Assembly: GCA_012838275.1 (NCBI GenBank)
Contig: DUPO01000033.1
Span: forward strand, 1 to 35,301
Origin: Spirochaetales bacterium
GTDB taxonomy: Bacteria; Spirochaetota; Spirochaetia; Sphaerochaetales; Sphaerochaetaceae
Direction of reading: 5' to 3'
Length of the DNA stretch: 35,301 nt
Of the stretch, positions 22,554-24,686 are shown in pieces. The position numbers were made by a program, and so were the translations under genes. Each line of letters starts with the position of its first letter. The first letter of the stretch is position 1. The notes under the pieces are model-generated. The model was not told the origin of the DNA. It saw only the letters and a program-made list of their open reading frames with translations, and did not search any database.

Positions 22554-22562
22554 TGATATACT
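22554..22562 (+). promoter_or_regulatory. extended -10 promoter abutting the DRTGG gene
   Basis: TGATATACT is an extended -10 (TGn plus TATACT, hexamer at 22557-22562). No good -35 lies 17 bases upstream (TATGGA), as is common for extended -10 promoters. Seven bases separate it from the ATG at 22570, so the mRNA would be leaderless or nearly so; no Shine-Dalgarno sequence is present. Confidence 0.5.
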
Positions 22563-22569
22563 AACCACC

Positions 22570-22914
22570 ATGAAACTGAAAGAAATACTTGAATGTGTCG
22601 ATGGAAAATTGGTCTGGGGAGAGTCCCATCTGGAAGATGAGGTAAAACGAGGATTTGCAAGCGACCTGATGAGTGATGTTCTCACCATTCTGGAAGATGA
22701 CATCATCCTCATTACGGGCCTGTCAAACAACCAATCCATCAGAACGGCAGAGATGAGCGATATAAGCAATATCCTCCTGGTGCGCAACAAACGCCCAAGT
22801 CAGAACATGATCGATATGGCGAAAGAACTGGACATATCGCTCTCTTACACCCCCTACTCCCTATTTAAGGCGAGCGGATTATTATTTGCAAAAGGACTGA
22901 AACCGGTATATTGA
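22570..22914 (+). CDS. DRTGG-domain protein
   Basis: This 114-residue protein appears to be one DRTGG domain, a small alpha/beta domain found in phosphotransacetylases and near hydrogenase genes, and thought to be a ligand sensor. Supporting text: MKLKEILECVDGKLVWGES, then SDLMSDVLTILEDDIILITG, SNILLVRNKRPSQNMIDMAKE, DISLSYTPYSLFKASGLLF. The alternating strands and the 'D-L-M-S-D-V' turn match the free-standing form that precedes an HATPase and an FeFe-hydrogenase-like gene in fermentative anaerobes. It heads a three-gene operon and probably helps control the downstream sensor. The mRNA looks leaderless. The domain call is good; the ligand is unknown. Confidence 0.8.
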   Translation: MKLKEILECVDGKLVWGESHLEDEVKRGFASDLMSDVLTILEDDIILITGLSNNQSIRTAEMSDISNILLVRNKRPSQNMIDMAKELDISLSYTPYSLFKASGLLFAKGLKPVY

Positions 22915-22915
22915 G

Positions 22916-23326
22916 ATGCATGAAGAATTCACCGTCCCTTCCAAAGACTTTTCGGTAGCAGGTGAGGCTTCAAGCAAGATAAAACGCATCTTGAAGCAAC
23001 TCAACATACCGCCACAGAGAATCAAGCAGATCATCGTCGCCGTCTTTGAGGCGGAGGTGAATGTCATTGCGCACTCCTATGGGGGGAAGGTAATCTGTGA
23101 TATTGAGGAAGAGAGGGTTCAGATTGATGTCATCGATACCGGTCCCGGCATAGAAAACCTGGACCTAGCCATGACAGAGGGGTGGTCAACCGCCACCAAT
23201 GAGGTAAGGGAGATGGGATATGGTGCCGGGATGGGGCTGCCAAATATCAAGAAAAGTTGTGATGAGCTGAAGATCTATACGAAAAAGGGAGACCATACGC
23301 ATATCTCCATGCGTTTTACCCTATAA
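22916..23326 (+). CDS. GHKL ATPase, anti-sigma-factor (RsbW-like) type
   Basis: The 136-residue protein is a lone HATPase_c domain. The N box is VFEAEVNVIAHSYGG, the G1 box is DTGPGI (near residue 79), and the G2 box is GYGAGMGLPNIKKSCD. Lone domains of this kind, such as RsbW and SpoIIAB, are serine kinases or binding partners that control sigma factors or anti-anti-sigma factors. It has no histidine kinase dimerisation region. It begins one base after the DRTGG stop, with no clear ribosome binding site, so translation is probably coupled. No sigma factor or STAS gene is adjacent, so the target is unknown. It probably relays the state of the hydrogenase-like protein. Confidence 0.9.
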   Translation: MHEEFTVPSKDFSVAGEASSKIKRILKQLNIPPQRIKQIIVAVFEAEVNVIAHSYGGKVICDIEEERVQIDVIDTGPGIENLDLAMTEGWSTATNEVREMGYGAGMGLPNIKKSCDELKIYTKKGDHTHISMRFTL

Positions 23327-23336
23327 GGAGCGCAGG

Positions 23337-24686
23337 ATGGACAACCTTCCATTTCACCACTCACTGCATGTTATAGAAGAGAAATGCAAAGGCTGTACGC
23401 ACTGCATGAAACGGTGTCCGACCAAAGCGATACGCATCTCCGGCGGCAAGGCAAGAATTTACAGCGACCTTTGCATCGACTGCGGCCAATGTATGGCGGT
23501 CTGCCCCAATGATGCCATTGATGTCGAGCAGGACTCCTTCGAACAGCTGAATGATTACAACTACCGCATAGGAATAGTCCCTGCGGTCTTTTTTGCGCAA
23601 TTTCCTGACACGTTCTCCCATGAACAGATATGCTCAGCCCTCTACGAGTCGGGCTTCACCCATCTCTACCTATCTGAAACGGGCATCGACATACTGGATA
23701 AGCTCGGCGCCCCTGAGATAGAGCATCAGCTGCCCCTGATAAGCAACTTCTGCCCGTCGGTGCAACGCCTGATCCAGATACGTTTCCCCCTGCTTCTTGA
23801 AAACATGAGCCGTGTCCGTCCCCCCGCCCAGATGGTAGCCCTCTTTGCAAAGAAAGAGCTGGAGGGTCAGAGTGACTCCATAGGTATATTCTACCTCACC
23901 CCCTGTGCCGCCAAGATTGCCCAGATAAAGACCAAGGGCTCGGAGGATAACAGTCTCTTCCAGGGAGTCATCAACTTCGATACGGCCTACAACAGGGTGA
24001 GGTCCTTCCTCGAGAAACACAAGAACCAGAAGCTTGTAGGAGAGCCTGCCACCCTATCCTTTCCCACCGTCACCCGCAAGGCCAGCCAGTGGAGCATGGT
24101 CAAGGGGCAGAGCAACACCCAAGGCGGGCGATCCCTCTCAGTCGATGAAGTGCATAATGTCATAGAGTTCCTCGACCTGCTTGAACAGGAAGATGACATC
24201 AATCTGGAATTCCTCGAACTTGATGCGTGTGCGGAGGGGTGTCCCGGGGGCATCCTCACGGTGCGTAACCGATTCTTGGCAAGTGAGCGCCTCAGGCACT
24301 GGTCACAGACCCTGCCCAAGGTGCTCCCCCCATCACTGATCAAACGCATCAATGACCAGAGCGACTTCCTGTCCAAGAACCTCTACCTCGACCCACCACA
24401 GCCCAAGGGGGGCATGAAGCTGGATCAGGATATAGGCAAGGCGCTCTACAAGCTGGAAAAGGTGCGGCAGATACTCGCCGTCCTTCCCGGTATCGACTGC
24501 GGGCTCTGCGGGTCTCCGACCTGCAGATCCCTAGCAGAAGACATAGCCCAGAAGGAAGCGAGCATACGTCAGTGTGTGGTGCTCAAGCTCAAGGATCCCA
24601 AGGAGCTCAATGCTCTTGCCAAAATCTGGGGAGAACGCCCTAGAGGGGCAGGCGCCGCGAAGGACGGTCAAGGGCAGGGTTCTTAG
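23337..24686 (+). CDS. sensory-type [FeFe]-hydrogenase-like iron-sulfur protein
   Basis: The 449-residue protein has two [4Fe-4S] ferredoxin motifs (CKGCTHCMKRCP at 17-28, CIDCGQCMAVCP at 46-57), then an FeFe-hydrogenase H-cluster domain. The three loops are present in reduced form: L1 NFCPS (Cys139), L2 LTPCAAK (Cys190) and L3 DACAEGCPGG (Cys298, Cys302), so all four H-cluster cubane ligands are kept. Phe138 replaces the first Cys of the catalytic T-S-C-C-P motif, which relays protons in real enzymes. A C-terminal four-Cys Fe-S domain (CGLCGSPTC to CVVLK, residues 388-413) follows. This order matches sensor-like hydrogenases, but with no PAS or phosphatase domain. AAGGAG lies six bases before the ATG. 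The end overlaps the convergent M16 gene by 47 bases. Confidence 0.88.
   Translation: MDNLPFHHSLHVIEEKCKGCTHCMKRCPTKAIRISGGKARIYSDLCIDCGQCMAVCPNDAIDVEQDSFEQLNDYNYRIGIVPAVFFAQFPDTFSHEQICSALYESGFTHLYLSETGIDILDKLGAPEIEHQLPLISNFCPSVQRLIQIRFPLLLENMSRVRPPAQMVALFAKKELEGQSDSIGIFYLTPCAAKIAQIKTKGSEDNSLFQGVINFDTAYNRVRSFLEKHKNQKLVGEPATLSFPTVTRKASQWSMVKGQSNTQGGRSLSVDEVHNVIEFLDLLEQEDDINLEFLELDACAEGCPGGILTVRNRFLASERLRHWSQTLPKVLPPSLIKRINDQSDFLSKNLYLDPPQPKGGMKLDQDIGKALYKLEKVRQILAVLPGIDCGLCGSPTCRSLAEDIAQKEASIRQCVVLKLKDPKELNALAKIWGERPRGAGAAKDGQGQGS

Follow-up and report, generated by a model that had tools for sequence, protein, structure and literature searches.

The locus described here raises the question of whether three tightly packed genes, the last of which encodes an H-cluster-type protein, form a sensor of hydrogen or redox state and, if so, through which protein the signal would leave. 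The genes lie in a 35,301-nucleotide stretch of DNA (the window) from the draft genome of a Sphaerochaeta-like spirochaete (2.36 Mb in 229 contigs, 95% complete); within the species collection, Sphaerochaeta MAGs are its nearest kin.

Gene content of the locus

The first gene of the trio (22570–22914, + strand) encodes a 114-amino acid protein with a Pfam DRTGG domain. The second (22916–23326, + strand) encodes a stand-alone HATPase of 136 amino acids (P0002), and the third (23337–24686, + strand) the 449-amino acid H-cluster-type protein, HydS. The intergenic gaps are 1 nt and 10 nt, and Pfam supports each gene, so the tight packing reported in the preliminary description holds; its operon start at 22554, however, is out of frame with the conserved start ATG at 22570. 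The trio is flanked by a glycerol-kinase-like gene, glpK, and by a large M16-type peptidase-like gene, both on the − strand and both named from sequence. A promoter and terminator scan at the trio gave matches about as frequent as in shuffled sequence. Comparison with the nearest relative (88–95% amino acid identity) gives dN/dS values of 0.04–0.07 for the trio genes, which indicates that they are real, functional, and under purifying selection.

The DRTGG protein scores 27.9 bits against a Pfam cut-off of 25.2. Its AlphaFold2 model has a pLDDT of 94, and the best PDB match is 2ioj, the DRTGG protein AF1212, with a TM score of 0.85. The CBS-DRTGG pyrophosphatase regulator of Clostridium perfringens (3l2b, 3l31) has the same fold at a TM score of about 0.74. 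Unlike either of these, the window protein is free-standing, carries the conserved motif SDLMSDVLT, and is encoded in a hydrogenase operon. We found 29 invariant positions among 20 homologues, and S35 and T39 within the motif are invariant. Judged by their conservation, these two residues are candidate phosphorylation sites, and the DRTGG protein may be a kinase substrate.

The HATPase matches HATPase_c_2 (E 1.1e-10). Its best NCBIfam match is SpoIIAB, at 56.5 bits and thus below the equivalog cut-off of 135, and a sequence search against solved structures returned no match. The motifs E45-x3-N49, DxGPGI (D74-x-G76), and GAGMG (G101/G103/G105) are invariant in 14 homologues. It shares with the SpoIIAB/RsbW anti-sigma kinases a stand-alone GHKL ATPase form and the E-x3-N, DxGxG, and G-rich motifs, but it falls below the family cut-off, its neighbor is a DRTGG gene, and no short STAS partner was found in the genome. 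It is of the SpoIIAB/RsbW-like GHKL type and is probably a kinase or switch protein.

Family and fold of the H-domain protein

HydS matches Fe_hyd_lg_C (PF02906; E 5.3e-17) and the FeS family PF04060 (E 1.6e-12), and Pfam also places two Fer4 clusters at the N-terminus, which the preliminary description had not mentioned. The layout is therefore two N-terminal [4Fe-4S] sites, an H-domain at about residues 76–310, and a C-terminal Cx2Cx4Cx16C cluster at 388–413. The four cysteines expected to hold the H-cluster cubane (C139, C190, C298, and C302) are present as first described and are invariant in 23 aligned homologues, as are the ligands of the C-terminal cluster (C388, C391, C396, and C413). 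The diiron-site residues K193 and C302 are kept. The alignment also confirms loss of the relay cysteine: residue 138, at the position of the CpI proton-relay Cys299, is Phe, and all 23 aligned members of the trio clade have Phe or Tyr there. T188 stands at the position of CpI M353. The AlphaFold2 model has a mean pLDDT of 79 and adopts a true [FeFe]-hydrogenase fold; its Z score is about 30 against CbA5H and about 28 against CpI. A fold unable to hold the diiron site, which the preliminary description had named as one thing that would count against it, is thus not what is predicted. Some active-site loops of the model are low in confidence, as can be the case when a structure is predicted without its metals.

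HydS is a putative sensory [FeFe]-hydrogenase of the group D (M2e) type. The model of this group, TamHydS of Thermoanaerobacter mathranii, has no PAS domain and a C-terminal four-Cys cluster (PMC8163306, PMC13104023), and the published residue traits are loss of Cys299 and replacement of Met353 by Ser or Thr (PMC8163306). HydS has the H-domain with its four cysteines, the two N-terminal sites, and the C-terminal Cx2Cx4Cx16C motif in the same domain order, without PAS; Cys299 is lost, with Phe rather than Ala as a variant, and T188 supplies the hydroxyl residue at the M353 position. Around the C-terminal cluster, D387 (directly preceding its first cysteine), S393, E401, and D402 match in spacing D378, S384, E392, and D393 of TamHydS (PMC13104023). 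A HATPase gene flanks the TamHydS gene as well (PMC8163306). The proton relay is where the window protein departs. Mutation of E252 in TamHydS almost eliminates H2 oxidation, and E289 and D265 are further relay residues (PMC10407848). The latter two are kept as E294 and D270, whereas the E252 position is occupied by Q258; Gln is found in the eight tree rows of the window's genus clade (the window protein itself plus seven relatives), against Glu in the other trio-clade rows and in the Firmicute-type references. Glu252 is published as highly conserved rather than as a mark of group membership.

Maximum-likelihood analysis places the trio clade (100/100) with the Firmicute-type group D references and outside groups A and C; these references are proxies from a plasmid collection, assigned by published residues rather than by HydDB, and TamHydS itself lies outside the tree. 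Architecture, residues, and tree together support the sensory type proposed in the preliminary description, from which we infer the signaling role. The trio is a real and conserved unit, probably for signaling, and represents an unusual variant within a known family. Its layout, first taken as a new minimal design, is the published group D architecture, since that group was already known to lack PAS and to carry a C-terminal Fe-S motif. What is new, at the level of aligned sequences, is the aromatic residue at the relay cysteine position throughout the trio subclade (23/23), where the characterized enzyme has Ala.

The group C (M2f) proteins, such as HydS of Thermotoga maritima, HydS of Ruminococcus albus, and HfsB of Thermoanaerobacterium, resemble the window protein in their N-terminal clusters, C-terminal Fe-S cluster, signaling neighbors, and an H-domain mostly without the relay cysteine. 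They differ in having the C-terminal PAS that defines the group, and in adjoining a SpoIIE phosphatase and a second HydA-like gene. Pfam finds neither a PAS nor a phosphatase domain in HydS, in agreement with the preliminary description, while the group C protein of the same genome gives a PAS match. The C-terminal four-Cys domain had been thought to stand in place of PAS; it is common to group C too and so is no replacement. That group C protein belongs to a complete operon on contig C120 (L040:5919-11826), consisting of a Rex-like regulator, HydS with PAS, SpoIIE, a ferredoxin, and a second HydA-like protein, in the layout of the hfs/hydS operons of Clostridia.

Our preferred reading, held with moderate confidence, is that the three genes form a stand-alone sensor unit built on a group D [FeFe]-hydrogenase, in which HydS gates an ATPase/kinase acting on the DRTGG protein. 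HydS would use its Fe-S chain, and also its H-cluster if this is matured, to read H2 or the reduced-ferredoxin/redox state. It would then change conformation and thereby gate the stand-alone GHKL ATPase; as a probable Ser/Thr kinase, the ATPase would in turn act on the DRTGG protein. The latter would be the output and would alter hydrogen or redox metabolism, most likely through binding to a partner enzyme or a nucleotide-like ligand. What the analysis shows is fold, group, domain composition, conservation, and linkage, along with DRTGG genes that have outlasted the other two; sensing, kinase activity, phosphorylation, and target are proposed. The published group D architecture and residue traits count for this model, as do the tree placement, the conserved gene order, the intact catalytic motifs of the HATPase, and the DRTGG-only loci described below; the Gln at the relay Glu252 position and the lack of HydE, HydF, and HydG above cut-off in the window genome count against it.

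Maturases and the diiron subsite

The preliminary description had also tied its reading to the presence of the maturases HydE, HydF, and HydG. None was found above cut-off in the window genome, a 95%-complete draft, and the H-cluster of HydS may therefore not be complete. All three are likewise absent from all six same-genus genomes, five of which are single-contig and 98–100% complete, so this expectation failed both in the window genome and in five single-contig relatives. Of 61 genomes of the family, 5 have HydG above cut-off, 10 have HydF, and 8 have HydE. It was a surprise that most trio-bearing genomes of the family lack the known cofactor-building enzymes: 17 of the 21 with a verified trio are without all three, and four of these 17 are single-contig. 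The draft state of MAGs weakens single maturase absences but not the single-contig pattern. HydS-D is no commoner where HydEFG is present (4/11) than where it is not (17/50; Fisher p = 1), and no positive association between the two was found. A search for empty HydEFG sites, using flanks from genome G063, gave nothing longer than short matches in most HydEFG-less genomes, and the majority of these were to a single repeated gene.

These absences bear on a reading that we regard as possible but doubtful, in which HydS of this organism senses redox state and has no diiron subsite. The fold and the [4Fe-4S] cubane would be kept, the protein would report the redox state of ferredoxin rather than H2, and the pocket, left empty, would be capped by the aromatic residue that replaces C299. 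The 17 trio-bearing genomes without HydEFG, four of them single-contig, are in line with this, as is the independence of HydS-D frequency from the maturases. So are the Phe or Tyr in 23/23 trio-clade members (the Firmicute-type references have Ala), the Q258 of the window's genus clade, and the finding that position 298 of CaHydA tolerates only Asp for high activity (PMC3485046). However, K193 and C302 of the diiron site are retained, and the aromatic residue occurs in HydG-bearing species as well. HydG is present in 12 of the 26 trio-bearing genomes reached via the species collection, including the isolate Sphaerochaeta halotolerans and all six Bacteroidota, and the aromatic residue therefore does not preclude maturases. 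Furthermore, these HydEFG-less genomes still encode canonical group A HydA, and a lack of maturases is therefore not in itself peculiar to HydS. For the HydEFG-less Sphaerochaetaceae, we put forward only tentatively a HydS that is diiron-free (or obtains its diiron by another route) and aromatic-capped, signaling through the kinase to DRTGG as a previously unrecognized output. The frequent lack of HydEFG beside intact hydrogenase genes, single-contig genomes included, calls for either an unknown maturation route or a hydrogenase fold that works without its hallmark cofactor.

PF02906 proteins occur in 61/61 family genomes, and the group A HydA proteins that we read keep the TSC[CS]PxW, MPC, and M[AGT]C-type motifs. 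Group A PF02906 genes were seen in the HydEFG-less window genome (G000; contig C211, L042:3660-8787) and in the single-contig HydEFG-less genomes G002, G023, G049, G055, and G059. The canonical TSCCPxW/MPCTAKK/MACRGGC set is found in group A HydA read from HydEFG-less genomes. In a second HydA type the motif is TSCSPGW, where Ser replaces the residue equivalent to Cys300, a cubane ligand in CpI. It is encoded on contig C139 of G000 (L041:8675-10504) and also at L045-L048, L053, L054, L057, L059, L068, L069, L073, L120, and L122, and is thus spread family-wide and in one Firmicute. HydG calls in MAGs need care. The MAG G062 (the source of L007) carries a trio nearly identical to that of the single-contig, HydEFG-less G002, and its contig C445 (L126) carries HydGFE 99% identical to that on contig C434 of G063 (L127); this is a possible case of mis-binning.

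Linkage of the trio and its proposed output

The DRTGG, HATPase, and HydS genes are adjacent at every related locus covered by a contig, with the exception of a distant Syntrophorhabdus match (L032), and their order is kept in Sphaerochaetaceae, in Bacteroidota including Parabacteroides, and in the Clostridium-class genus Subdoligranulum. The co-occurrence on which the preliminary description had relied is thus seen at nearly all complete related loci. In Bacteroidota, the trio is followed by DRTGG2-PHP-HATPase and then, in non-Parabacteroides loci that are long enough, by Fd-HydB-HydA. In genus g7 of the Sphaerochaetaceae, it is followed by PHP, HydC, HATPase, ferredoxin, HydB, and HydA. A 2012 survey had placed monomeric sensory hydrogenases upstream of bifurcating hydrogenases, often with a kinase gene in between (PMC3561251). 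The trio heading a HydABC operon in Bacteroidota and g7 counts for the sensor-unit model. The window trio differs from the TamHydS locus in standing away from HydABC, in that most of its carriers in Sphaerochaetaceae lack HydEFG, and in its DRTGG link, which is not described in the papers searched; our literature search found no paper that names a DRTGG partner of hydrogenases.

Two side observations concern these loci. The g7 loci L115, L116, L120, and L146 hold a different group D operon, of the Firmicute type (DRTGG-HATPase-HydS-PHP, with HydABC following on contigs of sufficient length), whose group D proteins have Ala at the C299 position, and this operon was possibly acquired by transfer. 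Both gyrA and a Clp protease gene are present on the record L121 (NZ_OY725779.1), which is therefore probably a piece of chromosome despite its label as a plasmid of Parabacteroides distasonis.

The same linkage makes it unlikely that HydS is a slow catalytic hydrogenase or electron-transfer enzyme with the small genes as assembly or regulatory helpers. TamHydS, a group D enzyme, does turn over H2 in both directions (PMC8163306). Nevertheless, HydS is strictly linked to the GHKL ATPase, both relay residues (at the Cys299 and Glu252 positions) are lost in the window protein, and there is no electron-partner gene at the trio locus, the HydABC operons of the genome being separate from it.

We also consider unlikely a classical RsbW/SpoIIAB partner switch, in which a STAS antagonist would release the HATPase, itself both kinase and anti-sigma factor. 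SpoIIAB is the best NCBIfam match, the HATPase motifs are intact, and the genome encodes three sigma70-type factors. On the other hand, the match lies far under the equivalog cut-off (56.5 vs 135 bits), and no sigma gene is linked to the trio. A STAS search of the 95%-complete draft gave a single match, in a 556-amino acid frame that is probably a SulP-type transporter, and no short anti-anti-sigma protein. This frame is too long for a SpoIIAA-type protein, so the classical switch lacks a key part, and the RsbW-like anti-sigma output of the preliminary description is left unsupported. The only SpoIIE phosphatase of the window genome sits in the separate group C operon on contig C120. Among the family genomes, DRTGG and SpoIIE tend to occur together (21/27 against 14/34; p = 0.005), a comparison that counts five DRTGG-only genomes and ignores kinship. 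The group C SpoIIE was rejected as an obligate antagonist of the trio kinase: genomes G009, G015, G027, and G031 have the trio without it, and the phosphatase is therefore at most optional.

The papers searched name no signal output for group D sensory hydrogenases, and the most recent of those on TamHydS finds that H2 does not reduce its C-terminal cluster (PMC13104023). A second surprise of the analysis is that the DRTGG gene outlives the other two. In G037, of the same genus, and in G018, G034, G046, and G053, of genus g18, the stretch from DRTGG to the M16 peptidase gene lacks precisely the HATPase and HydS genes, and DRTGG is retained at 54–77% identity. These DRTGG-only loci lie at L113:6743-7087, L114:7761-8105, L142:4197-4538, L143:4554-4898, and L145:3104-3445. 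Survival of DRTGG through the loss of its partners in two lineages suggests that it serves as the output and has a function independent of them, the HATPase and HydS together being its input. Together, the trio and the DRTGG-only loci offer a concrete, testable output protein. Although the window genome lacks maturases and two lineages lack kinase and sensor, it is very improbable that the trio is the decaying relic of a lost hydrogen system, given dN/dS values of 0.04–0.07 and metal-ligand cysteines that are invariant.
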